This document shows, one piece after another, positions 5,375 through 9,452 of a DNA stretch of 9,452 nt (position 1 is its first letter; the number at the start of each line of letters is the position of its first letter). This DNA comes from JBBIVP01 sp037439705 [NCBI: bacterium]. Its GTDB lineage: Bacteria > JBBIVP01. A program made the position numbers and the translations under genes. The DNA lies in the NCBI GenBank assembly GCA_037439705.1, contig JBBIVP010000075.1:1-9452 (forward strand), read 5' to 3'. The notes beneath the pieces are model-generated. The model worked only from the letters and a program-made list of their open reading frames with translations. It was not told the origin of the DNA and made no database searches.

Positions 5375-6148
5375 ATGAAGGGAGATTTTTTCAAAGGAAT
5401 TGTTCAGTGGGAATTTAAAAAGGAAGGACTTGAGGGTAATTTTAAGCTGCCTGTTTTCTATTATGATAATACCTCCGTTACCGCAATTTATACTGCTTCA
5501 ACATCAAAGGTAAGGAAATACCTTCCTCATCCGGATATGAATCCAGTTGAATTGTTTCCTGGTAGATGTCTTGTTGGTTTTACAGCCTTTGAGTACAGGA
5601 AGACCGATATAAATCCTTATAACGAATTTTCCATTTCTGTTCCGATAAGCTTCGGTAAGAAATCATGGGTTGGAATAGGAGTTCTGGGACAGATGTTGAA
5701 AAGGAGGTTCACCGTTTATATATGGCATCTTCCTGTAACCACTGAAATTGCAAGGTTTGGAGGGGTTGAATTGTACGGATATCCAAAATTTATAGCAAAT
5801 ATAGATTTTAAAGAATCTGGAGACTTTATAGAATGCAAACTACAGGAGGGTGAGGAACATATTCTTACATTGAGAGGAAAAAAGCTCAAAACATCAAAGG
5901 AAAAGGAGATGAAATACACAACCTATTCTATAAAGGACGGAATTCCTCTTGTTGCGAATGTTTTAGTAAATCCAATTGAGTTTGCACAGAGCGTGAATCC
6001 CTCTTCTGCAGAATTACAAATAGGTGAGGACCACCCCATCTGTAAAGAACTTAAAGATATAGAGCTTGGGAAATATCCGGTTTTCTATCAATACATTCCA
6101 TTGAACGAAGCAATTCTATTTGGACCAAGAAATCTTATTGATATATGA
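5375..6148 (+). CDS. Acetoacetate decarboxylase family protein (substrate unknown)
   Basis: A 257-residue protein matching the acetoacetate decarboxylase (ADC) fold. Two anchors align with the Clostridium acetobutylicum enzyme as I remember it: NPYNEFSISVPISFG (80-94), in which E84 matches active-site Glu76, and VELYGYPKFIANI (131-143), in which K138 matches the Schiff-base lysine. Further family features are the early KLPVFYYDNTS segment and the late FGPRNL ending. Classical ADC has two adjacent lysines here; this protein has Lys-Phe. Family members use Schiff-base chemistry for beta-keto acid decarboxylation, and some relatives act on other keto compounds, so acetoacetate itself should not be assumed. 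It probably acts in the cytoplasm as a soluble oligomer. It is the first gene of the rightward cluster and overlaps the next gene by 4 bp (ATGA), implying coupled translation with the acyl-CoA dehydrogenase pair and a shared pathway. Confidence 0.87.
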   Translation: MKGDFFKGIVQWEFKKEGLEGNFKLPVFYYDNTSVTAIYTASTSKVRKYLPHPDMNPVELFPGRCLVGFTAFEYRKTDINPYNEFSISVPISFGKKSWVGIGVLGQMLKRRFTVYIWHLPVTTEIARFGGVELYGYPKFIANIDFKESGDFIECKLQEGEEHILTLRGKKLKTSKEKEMKYTTYSIKDGIPLVANVLVNPIEFAQSVNPSSAELQIGEDHPICKELKDIELGKYPVFYQYIPLNEAILFGPRNLIDI

Positions 6149-7515
6149 AGGATATTCTGGAAGAGCATCCCGAACTTAAAAGGGACAAACTGGCAAGATA
6201 TGTTATTGAATCCGGAAGGAAATTTAAAGAAAGGTTTATTGTTCCACATGCTCACGAACTTGATAGAAAACTTCTTCTTGACCCTCACTATCATCCGGAA
6301 GAAATAATAAAAAGGGGATGTGAATTCAGATTTTTTAGCCTTCCGGTTCCTAAATTCATAGGTGGATTGGGCGGAGGTGCATTGCATGTTTCATTGCTCA
6401 TGGAAGAACTCTGTTCAGGATGTGGGGGGATTGCAAACATTTTTGGTGCCCATTATTTAGGACTCGCTGGAGTCCTTGTATCCGCTGACCTTTACGCATA
6501 CGGTAAATTCGTTACGGAGATAGTGAAAGGGGAAATGGAGAAAAAACCCATTATATTTTCAGCAGCCATAACAGAACCAACTGCTGGGACGGATGTAGAA
6601 GATAGAGACCTTCTGCCAAAAGCAAAACTTGTCCTCTCAGCAAAAAAACTGGATAATGGCTATCTTCTTAATGGAAGAAAGGTATTTATAAGCAATGGAA
6701 GCATTGCGGATTATAACCTTGTAGTGTGTGCCCTTGACAGAAAAAGACCACTTGAAACATTTAGCGGTTTTGTTGTCCCAAAGGGAACACCGGGATTTTC
6801 CATTGGAAGAATAGAACTCAAAATGGGACAGAGGGCGTGTCATGCTGCAGAACTGGTTTTTGAGGATTGTTTTATCCCCGAGGAAAACAGGGTCGGAATG
6901 GAAGGAGACGGTATGCTTGCAGTTGAACTTGTTCTTTCCGCATCAAGGGGGCCTGTTGGTGCGATAGCCACAGGGATTGCAAGAGGGGCTTATGAAAGAG
7001 CCCTTGATTATGCAAGAAACAAGAAGACGAGAAACGGAAGGTTAATTGATAAACAGTGGGTTCAGTTAACACTTGCAGAAATGGATGCAATGGTGAGAAA
7101 GGCAAGAAATGCTTATATTCAGGCTTCCATCTTTTTTGACAGGTTTATTCTCAACGGAATAATGAAGGGATTTCCTCAAATTGGATTGCTGAAAAGGATT
7201 TTTGAAAGTAAAGGATTTCTCAATTTCACTAAAAGGGATTTCTTTAAAAAGAGATGGTATGAATTCATAAAAAGCAGAATAGACCAGAAAATGCTGTACA
7301 CATCCTTCGGACTATCCTCTTTCGCAAAGTTTTCCTCAAGCGATATAGCGGTTAAGGTGTGTTTAATGGCAATGAAGATTCTCGGGAATGAAGGTGCTGA
7401 AGAAAGGAATTTGGTGGAGAAATTTATGAGGGACGCAAAACTTACCCAGATTTATGAGGGCACGAATCAACTCAATAGACTGACTGTTTTCAAAACCCTA
7501 ATTTCAGGACACTGA
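6145..7515 (+). CDS. Acyl-CoA dehydrogenase family protein, catalytic-type subunit
   Basis: A 456-residue member of the acyl-CoA dehydrogenase (ACAD) family, FAD flavoenzymes that form a 2,3-enoyl-CoA and pass electrons to an electron-transfer flavoprotein. Seen: an N-terminal helical domain, the middle-domain motif ITEPTAGTD (142-150), GRKVFISNG (177-185), MGQRACHAAELVFEDCFIP (227-245), and a C-terminal helical domain ending in RDAKLTQIYEGTNQLNR, in which E438 matches the catalytic Glu of MCAD/SCAD-type enzymes. Two oddities: about 50 extra residues (about 330-383, rich in Phe and Lys) between C-terminal helices make it longer than the usual 380-400; and the QxxGGxGY segment that contacts the FAD of the partner subunit reads KILGNEGAEE (411-420), with Gln and the second Gly gone. 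The ARNKK..NG segment also lacks the usual RxxFG. The start overlaps the ADC-like gene by 4 bp. It probably works with the next gene product as a heteromer. The substrate is unknown. Confidence 0.92.
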   Translation: MKDILEEHPELKRDKLARYVIESGRKFKERFIVPHAHELDRKLLLDPHYHPEEIIKRGCEFRFFSLPVPKFIGGLGGGALHVSLLMEELCSGCGGIANIFGAHYLGLAGVLVSADLYAYGKFVTEIVKGEMEKKPIIFSAAITEPTAGTDVEDRDLLPKAKLVLSAKKLDNGYLLNGRKVFISNGSIADYNLVVCALDRKRPLETFSGFVVPKGTPGFSIGRIELKMGQRACHAAELVFEDCFIPEENRVGMEGDGMLAVELVLSASRGPVGAIATGIARGAYERALDYARNKKTRNGRLIDKQWVQLTLAEMDAMVRKARNAYIQASIFFDRFILNGIMKGFPQIGLLKRIFESKGFLNFTKRDFFKKRWYEFIKSRIDQKMLYTSFGLSSFAKFSSSDIAVKVCLMAMKILGNEGAEERNLVEKFMRDAKLTQIYEGTNQLNRLTVFKTLISGH

Positions 7516-8549
7516 TGAACGGACAAGAGAGAAAGATAATCATTGAGACAGCAGAAAAATTTATGAGAAAGGTTTTTCTTCCTCATATTTCCACCTTTGA
7601 TAAGTTTCCTCTATTACCTCCTCCTTTTGAGCCAAGCAAAAAATTCTTTGAAATGGGAATTCATGAACTCGTAAAAGGTATGGACATACTTTCGGTTGTT
7701 GAAGTTCTAATGAAAGTATCGGAATTCTGTGCAGGTTTAGGGGCTTTTTTAGGTTATATGATTGCTGGAGAGATTTTGAAAATAAAATCTGGAATTGAAA
7801 CTGATGGAATTACATCAATTGCTATCTTTGAAGATGAGGATTTAGATTTAGAAAATGGCGGAAGGTTTTTTGTGAAAATGGAGGATGGAAAATTGAGGGG
7901 GATAAAAAAATCTGTGTTTCTTTTTCATCTGGCAGATATTTTTGCTGTTTTCTGCGAACTGGATGGAGAAAAAACAATTGCCTGGATAAGAAGAGAGGAT
8001 GTCAATGTGAATGAACCATCTGGTTTGATCGGCATAAGGGCATGCCCGTGTTCTGACATAGTTATAAAAAATTCTGTTCAGCCTTTAAAATTAACCCCTG
8101 CAGACAAACTTTTTCATTATTCCATTTCTCTTATCAGTTTGTTTTCATCAGCCTGTGCCTGTTCCACAGCAATTTCCGCCATTGAAAAAGCCTCTTCCTA
8201 TGCAAAGGAAAGGTATCAGGGAGGAAGCTTAATAATTGAATACGATGCCATAAAACTAATGCTATCCCATAACAGGATTTTACTCGGGAAGTGCAGGGAT
8301 TTAATTTTGAAGACTGCCGAAAATTTTAGAGAAGATGAAGTTTTATGGGTTGATGCTGTAAGAACCAAAATTTTCGCATCGGAGGTGGCAGTTAATGCAT
8401 GTCTTGATGCAATCCAGGTTTTTGGCGGATATGGATATATGAGGGATTACGAGGTTGAGAAGAGGTTCAGAGACGCAGTCGCCCTTTCCCTTCAACCCTT
8501 TGATAGTATCAGAGCGACCCTCTACCTTAATTCCATTGGAACCAAATGA
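7515..8549 (+). CDS. Divergent acyl-CoA dehydrogenase-like protein, probable non-catalytic partner subunit
   Basis: A 344-residue ACAD-fold protein, shorter than usual. The C-terminal domain is convincing: AKERYQGGSLIIEYDAIKLML (230-250, like the RxQGGxxI pattern of many ACADs) and QVFGGYGYMRDYEVEKRFRDA (301-321), a fully conserved segment that in homotetrameric ACADs contacts the ADP part of FAD in the neighbouring subunit. Catalytic parts are missing. Where the IYEGT motif should follow RDA, the sequence reads LSLQPFDSIR, so the Glu position is Pro328, and no Glu is found near the alternative helix-G position either. The TEPxAGSD-type motif is replaced by acidic FEDEDLDLENGG (105-116). A Cys-rich stretch (ACACS, 213-217) is also present. 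It starts one base inside the previous stop (TGATG) with AGGA at 7506-7509. It could be a structural half of a heteromeric dehydrogenase or an enzyme with altered chemistry; I favour the former. Confidence 0.85.
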   Translation: MNGQERKIIIETAEKFMRKVFLPHISTFDKFPLLPPPFEPSKKFFEMGIHELVKGMDILSVVEVLMKVSEFCAGLGAFLGYMIAGEILKIKSGIETDGITSIAIFEDEDLDLENGGRFFVKMEDGKLRGIKKSVFLFHLADIFAVFCELDGEKTIAWIRREDVNVNEPSGLIGIRACPCSDIVIKNSVQPLKLTPADKLFHYSISLISLFSSACACSTAISAIEKASSYAKERYQGGSLIIEYDAIKLMLSHNRILLGKCRDLILKTAENFREDEVLWVDAVRTKIFASEVAVNACLDAIQVFGGYGYMRDYEVEKRFRDAVALSLQPFDSIRATLYLNSIGTK

Positions 8550-8595: not shown

Positions 8596-9452
8596 ATGAA
8601 AAGCGCGATGAGAAAATGGGGCACCTGCAAAATTTTTCTGGTTCTTTTTTGCTTTTTTTTAAAGCCAGAGGTTATGCTGGCAGTAGATTTTGATAAAATG
8701 CACAGAGAAATTGAGACATTTTTAACCGGGAAAAAATTCAATTTTGAAAAAACTTATAATTTAAAAATAGGGACCCTCGCTCCTGAAATGACTCCCTGGA
8801 CAAACATACCAAGAAATTACATAATCCCTAAAATTCTTGAGGTTTCTGATGGAAAAGTAAAATTGGTGTTGTATTCCAGTGGTGTGATGGGAGATGACCC
8901 TGATGTTGTAAGAAAAATGAGACTGGGACAGCTTCAGGGATGCGGATGTACCGCAACAGGACTTTACATTCTTGATCCCGAACTTTCGGTATTTTCACTT
9001 CCTTTTATCTTTTCAGACTATGATGAGGTAAATTATGTCCTTGATAAATTGAAACCTGATATTGAGGCTTTACTGAAGAAGAAGAATCTCATGATTTTTT
9101 CGTTGATTCACACGGGATTTATGTACCTTTTTTCAAAAGAAATGATTAACTCACTGGAACTTATGAGAAAGGCAAAGGTTCTTACATGGTTCGGGAAAAT
9201 AGAACAGGAAACCCTGAAATCCATTGGAATTAATCCAGTTCCTCTTTCTGTGCCTGAAGTTGTTATGGGTTTGAGGAGTGGGCTTATAACTGCGCATTTC
9301 TCTCCTCCTGTATGGTCATTGAGTGCTCAGGCTTACCTTTCAACTCCTTTCTCCATGGAACCTCCGTTTTTTTATGCTCCAGCAGGAGTAGTGGTTGACA
9401 CCAACAGCATAAAGGATTTGCCTCCGGAAGCAATTTTCCTCTCAAATGATAT
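8596..9452 (+). CDS. TRAP transporter solute-binding protein, DctP family (3' end beyond window)
   Basis: 285 codons are present and no stop is reached; DctP proteins usually run about 330-340 residues, so roughly the last 50 are outside. The N-terminus (MKSAMRKWGTCKIF, then LVLFCFFL, then PEVMLA-VD) is a signal peptide with likely cleavage after about residue 29, so the protein is exported to the periplasm or surface. Family landmarks: LKIGTLAPEMTPW (56-68), VKLVLYSSGVMGDDPDVVRKM (88-108), RLGQLQGCGC (109-118), SLPFIFSDYDEVNYV (134-148), INPVPLSVPEVVMGLRSGLI (212-231). It would capture a solute for a Na+- or proton-driven TRAP permease, presumably encoded downstream. In the segment that usually reads like KIRTPG with the substrate-binding Arg, this protein has KVLTWFG (194-200). 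Loss of that Arg and the KVxxW pattern place it in a DctP subgroup whose ligands are probably not simple carboxylates. Its position behind a decarboxylase-like gene and dehydrogenases links it to uptake of their substrate. Confidence 0.92.
   Translation, partial: MKSAMRKWGTCKIFLVLFCFFLKPEVMLAVDFDKMHREIETFLTGKKFNFEKTYNLKIGTLAPEMTPWTNIPRNYIIPKILEVSDGKVKLVLYSSGVMGDDPDVVRKMRLGQLQGCGCTATGLYILDPELSVFSLPFIFSDYDEVNYVLDKLKPDIEALLKKKNLMIFSLIHTGFMYLFSKEMINSLELMRKAKVLTWFGKIEQETLKSIGINPVPLSVPEVVMGLRSGLITAHFSPPVWSLSAQAYLSTPFSMEPPFFYAPAGVVVDTNSIKDLPPEAIFLSND

Follow-up and report, generated by a model that had tools for sequence, protein, structure and literature searches.

The closest described counterparts of the system reported here are the steroid alpha2beta2 acyl-CoA dehydrogenases (ACADs), a set comprising ChsE4-ChsE5 (FadE26-FadE27, PDB 4x28), ChsE1-ChsE2, IpdE1-IpdE2, Tcur3483-Tcur3481 (6wy8), and Scd1AB. 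According to PMC11153573, the crystal structures of ChsE4-ChsE5 and ChsE1-ChsE2 place the isoalloxazine of flavin adenine dinucleotide (FAD), the substrate, and the catalytic Glu in the alpha subunit, and the ADP-ribose of that FAD is contacted by the beta subunit. Each heterodimer contains a single FAD and a single active site, and activity requires the heterotetramer (PMC8399759). The FAD is located at the dimer interface, and the catalytic bases are Glu376 in medium-chain ACAD (MCAD) and Glu291, on helix G, in long-chain ACAD (PMC11153573, PMC6678751, and PMC8399759). Here we describe a 9,452-nucleotide stretch of bacterial DNA (contig JBBIVP010000075.1 of JBBIVP01 sp037439705), which as a whole is referred to as the window, and in it two adjacent genes, ACAD1 and ACAD2. 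Judging from their residues and by analogy with the steroid enzymes, the two products very probably act together as alpha and beta subunit of a single acyl-CoA dehydrogenase, an obligate heteromer whose assembly is most likely alpha2beta2. In MCAD, whose numbering is used below, Arg281, Gln349, and Gly353 are residues contributed by the neighbouring subunit. The two genes have the following features.

6145..7515, + strand: ACAD1, proposed alpha (catalytic) subunit, 456 amino acids; Pfam ACAD domains; relatives at 57 other loci
6571..6594, + strand: ACAD1 TEPTAGTD (T143-D150), the flavin-side FAD motif, preceded by I142; T, E, and P in 58/58 ACAD1
7141..7299 (ends approximate), + strand: insert specific to the ACAD1 family (about residues 333-385), located between helix H and helix I by spacing and predicted helices
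7375..7395, + strand: ACAD1 degenerate KILGNEG (K411-G417) at the QxxGGxGY position; the Q349 equivalent is K in the window
7450..7464, + strand: ACAD1 IYEGT (I436-Y437-E438-G-T) with the proposed catalytic base E438; E in 58/58 ACAD1
7515..8549, + strand: ACAD2, proposed beta (FAD-adenine-binding, non-catalytic) subunit, 344 amino acids; only C-terminal Pfam ACAD domains score
8208..8225, + strand: ACAD2 ERYQGG (E232-G237), equivalent of the MCAD R281 loop; R281-column R and T283-column Q in 50/50 ACAD2
8415..8438, + strand: ACAD2 intact QVFGGYGY (Q301-Y308); Q in 50/50, G353-column G in 49/50, the remaining one cut by a contig end
8496..8504, + strand: ACAD2 P328-F329-D330 at the EGT position, base lost; this column has E in 0/50 ACAD2

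The two chains keep different parts of the FAD site. When both are aligned together with 14 ordinary ACADs, the residues of the window's ACAD1 and ACAD2 are, respectively, T and E at the MCAD T136 column, K and R at R281, T and Q at T283, K and Q at Q349, N and G at G353, and E and P at E376. A sequence-only reading of the same DNA had already pointed to this pattern. Translation of the open reading frames together with the alignment bears out its motifs, namely ITEPTAGTD, IYEGT, and the degraded KILGNEG in ACAD1, and QVFGGYGY in ACAD2, from which TEP is absent and in which Pro328 and FD replace EGT. The one-base overlap of the genes, also claimed there, takes the form of a TGATG junction. Absent from that reading is the Arg281 loop, which is split in the same direction, ERYQGG being kept in ACAD2 and degraded in ACAD1.

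The split is conserved across the family, for which residues were counted over 58 ACAD1 and 50 ACAD2 sequences in a joint alignment. The TEP Thr is present in 58/58 ACAD1 versus 7/50 ACAD2, and the Glu at the E376 column in 58/58 versus 0/50, one ACAD2 being cut before this column. The reverse applies to the adenine side, where the R281 column has Arg in 5/58 ACAD1 versus 50/50 ACAD2 and the Q349 column has Gln in 1/58 (E or D in 53/58) versus 50/50. The G352 column is kept in both, in 56/58 and 49/50 sequences, respectively. Each pair was then inspected with eight strict criteria, a full split consisting of an ACAD1 with TEP and the MCAD-type Glu but without the Arg281 and Gly353 equivalents, and an ACAD2 with the reverse. 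By this measure, 46 of the 50 aligned pairs are fully complementary. Among the four others, the ACAD2 of L039 is cut by a contig end, G353 is kept in the ACAD1 of L049, and the ACAD1 of L059 and that of L067 have an Arg aligned to R281. The 14 control ordinary ACADs are poor for two columns, having Q349 in 6 and E376 in 8; in a larger ordinary set (n=30), R281 occurs in 29, Q349 in 21, G353 in 26, and E376 in 19. Two adjacent pairs of ordinary ACADs (L009 and L143) have no split, and a TEP/SEP motif is found in both members. Random decay of the pair was considered and is ruled out because the split holds family-wide.

This distribution suggests how one site may be shared. ACAD1 would hold the flavin ring and the substrate, with Glu438 abstracting the proton. 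ACAD2, its own catalytic site lost, would give the R233/Q235 loop and the Q301-GG segment, and these residues may reach over the dimer interface to hold the ADP half of ACAD1's FAD. The reciprocal site, composed of the flavin side of ACAD2 and the adenine side of ACAD1, would be dead on both sides, so that each heterodimer would have one FAD and one active site. The proposal of the sequence-only reading that each chain supplies what the other lacks is supported by the complementary pairs and has its precedent in the steroid enzymes. We infer the heteromer, its stoichiometry with one site per heterodimer, the FAD count, and the dehydrogenase activity from the residue pattern and from that analogy.

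ACAD1 and ACAD2 are also inherited together. A first scan of genome contigs yielded 17 loci, including four with close ACAD1 relatives (L001-L004, 38-42% identity); ACAD2 is directly downstream of ACAD1 in L001-L003, and the contig of L004 ends there. When four genomes were searched with an ACAD1 profile (A1), eight members scored at least 390 bits and the other listed matches at most 182. At E <= 1e-95, ACAD1 was found in 17 of 297 genomes from the phylum of L003 (a Syntrophaceae record), 11 of 198 in an overlapping sample of that phylum, 13 of 198 from the phylum of L004 (an Actinomycetota record), and 3 of 187 from the phylum of L001 (a Polyangiaceae record). Outside the window, ACAD2 lies within 1.5 kb at 50 of the 57 non-redundant ACAD1 loci, one being cut by a contig end; it is usually downstream of ACAD1, and upstream at seven loci (L052-L057 and L060). 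These pair counts do not come from our own crude gene caller, which missed some ACAD2 genes.

The ACAD2 profile (A4), built without the partial L026, matched 17 of 297 and 13 of 198 genomes at E <= 1e-83 before inspection. Tabulated by threshold, the 495 genomes of two phyla comprise 29 with both genes, one with ACAD1 only, one with ACAD2 only, and 464 with neither. The match in the ACAD2-only genome G283 (L201) turned out to be an ordinary ACAD with TEP, GG, and EGT intact, and the ACAD1-only genome G162 has a 113-residue ACAD2 stretch at a contig end (L203). After inspection, 30 genomes have both, none has one only, and 465 have neither. A low match in G390 (L202) was also rejected as an ordinary ACAD, with no effect on the counts. 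The searches scored the best 5-9 candidates per genome, and rare or divergent members may escape. The sampled genomes are related, and the 30 co-occurrences do not amount to 30 independent events; Fisher's p of 9e-49 ignores this kinship and is not leaned on. The distance matrices of ACAD1 and ACAD2 over the 50 aligned pairs correlate with a Mantel r of 0.93, a value reached by 0 of 2000 permutations, the best of which gave 0.27. On the sequence-only reading's question whether homologues always co-occur as adjacent genes, they are adjacent at 50 of 57 loci and co-occur in 30 of 30 genomes, but the word always does not survive seven ACAD1 genes without a neighbouring ACAD2. That reading had also named homologues standing alone with intact motifs as evidence against its proposal, and none was found among the loci inspected. 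A search of viral contigs for ACAD2 gave no match.

By their domains and predicted folds, both chains belong to the acyl-CoA dehydrogenase superfamily. The single-chain AlphaFold model of ACAD1 has a predicted local distance difference test score (pLDDT) of 92.8 and a predicted template modelling score (pTM) of 0.93; that of ACAD2 has a pLDDT of 85.9 and a pTM of 0.88, with residues 107-117 under 50. The best sequence and fold matches of ACAD1 are homotetrameric MCAD, short-chain ACAD (SCAD), and butyryl-CoA dehydrogenase (1ukw, 3mdd, 1buc), and its best structural row is 1ukw_A (Z 49.0, root mean square deviation 1.8, 379 residues). The best row of ACAD2 is 4l1f_A (Z 38.4, deviation 2.6, 340 residues), near-tied with other ACAD rows. 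The proposed base of ACAD1 occupies the same position as in the MCAD/SCAD homotetramers, which differ in bearing the adenine-side residues on the same chain; ACAD1 is without them. Neither chain of the window combines flavin side, adenine side, and base, as a homotetrameric MCAD or SCAD does. Neither 4x28 nor 6wy8 is among the 60 PDB sequences listed for ACAD1, ACAD2, and the ACAD2 profile, or among the best 50 structure rows for each model, an absence that proves nothing.

ACAD1 further differs from the other groups in the spacing between helices H and I. The median is 66 residues (63-68) in ACAD1 (n=25), 13 (7-14) in ACAD2 (n=25), and 13 (0-22) in ordinary ACADs (n=30), with medians of 13-14 in all four groups other than ACAD1. 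The resulting insert of about 53 residues is helical in the AlphaFold model, and is found only in ACAD1, not in steroid-type chains. It is aromatic-rich in several relatives.

For the comparison with the steroid enzymes, we used chains from the steroid-degrading genome G338 plus similar chains, 17 in all, three of which are identified firmly. These three, all from G338, are a FadE26-like chain (4x28_A, 736 bits), a FadE27-like chain (4x28_D, 578 bits), and an IpdE2 above the NCBIfam cut-off. A fourth chain, an alpha also from G338, scores 370 bits to 6wy8_B and is presumably FadE29-like, and the remaining labels follow similarity to the IpdE2 model and neighbourhood. This model matched 26 of 60 genomes at E <= 1e-20, and one match was above the cut-off. 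At four loci (L121, L122, L123, and L127) of the sampled Actinomycetota-phylum genomes, a SEP-containing ACAD lies next to one without TEP, both being steroid-type by similarity.

ACAD1/ACAD2 and the steroid enzymes have in common adjacent unequal genes and split FAD-site residues. Their alignment, which the sequence-only reading had called for, displays the same division of labour. Like ACAD1, the steroid-type alpha chains keep TEP/SEP and the base and lose G353 and mostly R281; like ACAD2, the steroid-type beta chains keep R281, mostly Q349, and GG, and lose TEP and the base. A Glu at the Q349 column occurs in 5/7 steroid-type alpha and 16/25 ACAD1 (Lys in the window). The position of the base differs. 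All seven steroid-type alpha chains have Glu at the MCAD T255 column, on helix G, and none has Glu at E376, three being gapped there, whereas the 25 ACAD1 have T (13) or S (12) at T255 and Glu at E376 without exception. At the F284 column, G is found in 22/25 ACAD2 versus F in 10/10 steroid-type beta, although one of the latter (L138) contains an RNQGG string as well.

Two origins are favoured for the split in these sequences, with test support on the alpha side only. We built a tree of 97 rows from 25 of the 58 ACAD1, 25 of the 50 ACAD2, 7 steroid-type alpha, 10 steroid-type beta, and 30 ordinary ACADs, excluding the ACAD matches in L117, L119, L120, L124, and L125, one in L137, and two in L133, one of the latter being a fused 730-residue frame. 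ACAD1, ACAD2, and the steroid-type alpha and beta chains each form one group with starred support. An origin shared with the steroid alpha2beta2 ACADs (FadE26-FadE27, FadE28-FadE29, IpdE1-IpdE2), the base having moved later, would be compatible with the proposed mechanism and agrees with the equal division of labour and with the Glu that both alpha types mostly have at the Q349 column. A forced clade of ACAD2 and steroid-type beta is not rejected, being 18.6 log units worse (approximately unbiased (AU) test, p = 0.227). Against it, the free tree joins steroid-type alpha and beta (95/87) apart from ACAD1 and ACAD2 (98/92), the base lies at T255 in every steroid-type alpha and in no ACAD1, and a forced clade of ACAD1 and steroid-type alpha is 32 log units worse (AU p = 0.0337). 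This last rejection is weak, coming from one of two AU tests with long branches, and the deep joints are unsure because of two long rows, the window ACAD2 and one steroid-type beta. Two ordinary single-chain ACADs (L144 and L150) fall beside ACAD1 with weak support (82/31). On balance, a shared origin appears unlikely, and ACAD1/ACAD2 apparently represent a lineage distinct from the steroid enzymes, at least in the alpha subunit. The separate origin suggested by the sequence-only reading is supported for the alpha chains, where the Glu column differs and the AU test weakly rejects one clade, and the beta chains do not decide it.

Several observations weigh against an obligate pair. Seven ACAD1 genes have no adjoining ACAD2 (L004, L038, L062, L071, L072, L073, and L075); L004 lies at a contig end, and the wider flanks of the other six showed no ACAD2. 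In the genome of L038 (G138), a single ACAD1 and a single ACAD2 were found, on different contigs, the latter adjoining a frame that reads as alcohol-dehydrogenase-like, a label from the frame only. Other copies of ACAD2 are present in the genomes of L062 and L071-L073, where they adjoin other ACAD1 genes. L075 is the most divergent ACAD1; the roughly 640 bases left on its contig contain no ACAD2 frame, and the genome's best ACAD2-profile match, the one inspected for a partner, is an ordinary ACAD. L071, L072, and L075 retain an Arg aligned to R281. Moreover, the flavin-side Pro at the P138 column is still present in 35/50 ACAD2 (58/58 ACAD1), and co-inheritance is a sign of a functional link, not of contact. 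The unpaired genes (L062, L071-L073, and L075) and the three retained Arg residues would suit an ACAD1 that works alone despite a weakened adenine site, either as a homodimer or as a homotetramer, ACAD2 being a stabilising or regulatory partner. We consider this improbable, as the paired ACAD2 keeps exactly the adenine-side R, Q, Q, and GG and loses the base and TEP, which a mere stabiliser need not do. In the L071-L073 subgroup, Gln349 and Gly353 are still replaced. Its members may recruit, in trans, an ACAD2 encoded elsewhere, or may differ in how they bind FAD. The divergence of the window ACAD2 also speaks against its role as a subunit. Its identity to the other 49 ACAD2 is 19-27%, as compared with 33-44% between the window ACAD1 and its relatives; its tree branch has a length of 2.11, and with 344 residues it is shorter than most relatives. 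It could thus be a decaying, non-functional remnant, but the 344-codon frame is intact, overlaps ACAD1 by one base, and has all adenine-side residues, and this explanation is hardly credible. Because the window ACAD2 is far more divergent than the window ACAD1, the beta subunit seems to evolve faster here.

A heteromeric ACAD1-ACAD2 enzyme can be set beside two other described arrangements. CasC-type fused ACADs, among which FadE34 is counted, have two ACAD halves and one shared active site, as here, but CasC is a single fused steroid-type chain and ACAD1/ACAD2 are encoded by two genes. In CasC, the C-terminal half has the base and the N-terminal half is needed for FAD (PMC8399759). PimC and PimD of pimeloyl-CoA dehydrogenase (TIGR03204 and TIGR03203) are named as the large and small subunits of one ACAD. 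The window pair is not PimC/PimD, since ACAD1 reaches 23.3 and 32 bits where the respective cut-offs are 623.85 and 652.7; ACAD2 has no match to the two models at E <= 0.001. Among the papers listed in our searches of an open-access library, none describes the ACAD1/ACAD2 family. The split-subunit architecture is known already, and the lineage and the base position are, to our knowledge, new.

We think it rather likely that heteromeric ACADs with a divided site have at least two origins, one being that of the steroid enzymes, whose base lies on helix G, and the other that of the present lineage, derived from an MCAD/SCAD-like ancestor that had its base at E376, with Gln349 tending to give way to Glu in the catalytic chain of both. 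The second lineage would then occur in three or more phyla, frequently within clusters of beta-oxidation genes, and its helical insert may dock its own partner. If so, the sharing of one flavin site by two chains is something that ACAD duplication can produce repeatedly, and not a quirk of steroid degraders. Annotation would also present each such enzyme as a pair of ordinary acyl-CoA dehydrogenases, one of which, ACAD2, could by its residues not work alone, and metabolic models of the degraders carrying these genes would be misled by counting two independent enzymes.

The right half of the window is a + strand operon composed of an acetoacetate decarboxylase (ADC)-family gene, ACAD1, ACAD2, and a gene for a solute-binding protein of a tripartite ATP-independent periplasmic (TRAP) transporter. 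The two flanking genes are as follows.

5375..6148, + strand: ADC-family (acetoacetate decarboxylase-like) protein, 257 amino acids, the operon's first gene; Pfam PF06314, E 9.1e-19
8596..9452, + strand: TRAP transporter solute-binding protein DctP, cut by the window end; Pfam PF03480, NCBIfam NF037995

The ADC-family and ACAD1 frames share 4 bases, and the start of the DctP gene has its own Shine-Dalgarno-like GGAGG. The left part of the window encodes, on the - strand, adenylosuccinate synthetase, a poly(A)-polymerase/CCA-type protein, and two glycosyltransferases. Of 34 genomes searched with this adenylosuccinate synthetase, 32 gave a match, at 44-56% for the best one in each; the twelve that reach 50% all belong to the phylum of L003, and the host is therefore probably distantly related to that group.

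We then compared 45 neighbourhoods (the window, L001-L003, L076-L115, and L189) using our own crude gene caller, one representative being identified per cluster. An ADC-family cluster is present in 12/45, including L076 and L077, in which ACAD1 has no ACAD2 beside it; ADC was additionally found in L081 and L090 by phmmer and in L004 by tblastn. The window ADC is 61% identical to that of L003, which lies two genes from the L003 pair, and the window belongs to this ADC-linked set. Recurrent neighbour families include an SCP2/BbsB-like thiolase (21/45, NCBIfam matches all under cut-off), an AMP-forming acyl-CoA ligase (20/45), a short-chain dehydrogenase (19/45), and an enoyl-CoA hydratase (7/45). 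The setting is one of beta-oxidation. TetR regulators occur in 8 and 5 of the 45 neighbourhoods, and a 4Fe-4S protein in 6. Twelve neighbour representatives were scanned and matched beta-oxidation families; among their listed matches, no steroid-specific model scored above its cut-off, which is not proof. A GltD-like pyridine-nucleotide/FAD oxidoreductase fused to a nitroreductase domain (e.g., L109:12284-14377) is present in 20/45, on the same strand in 18 of the 20. Since no electron-transfer flavoprotein is among the twelve representatives, the only clusters scanned for it, this oxidoreductase may be part of the electron route. From the thiolase type, our guess is that the substrates are branched or ring-bearing acyl-CoAs.

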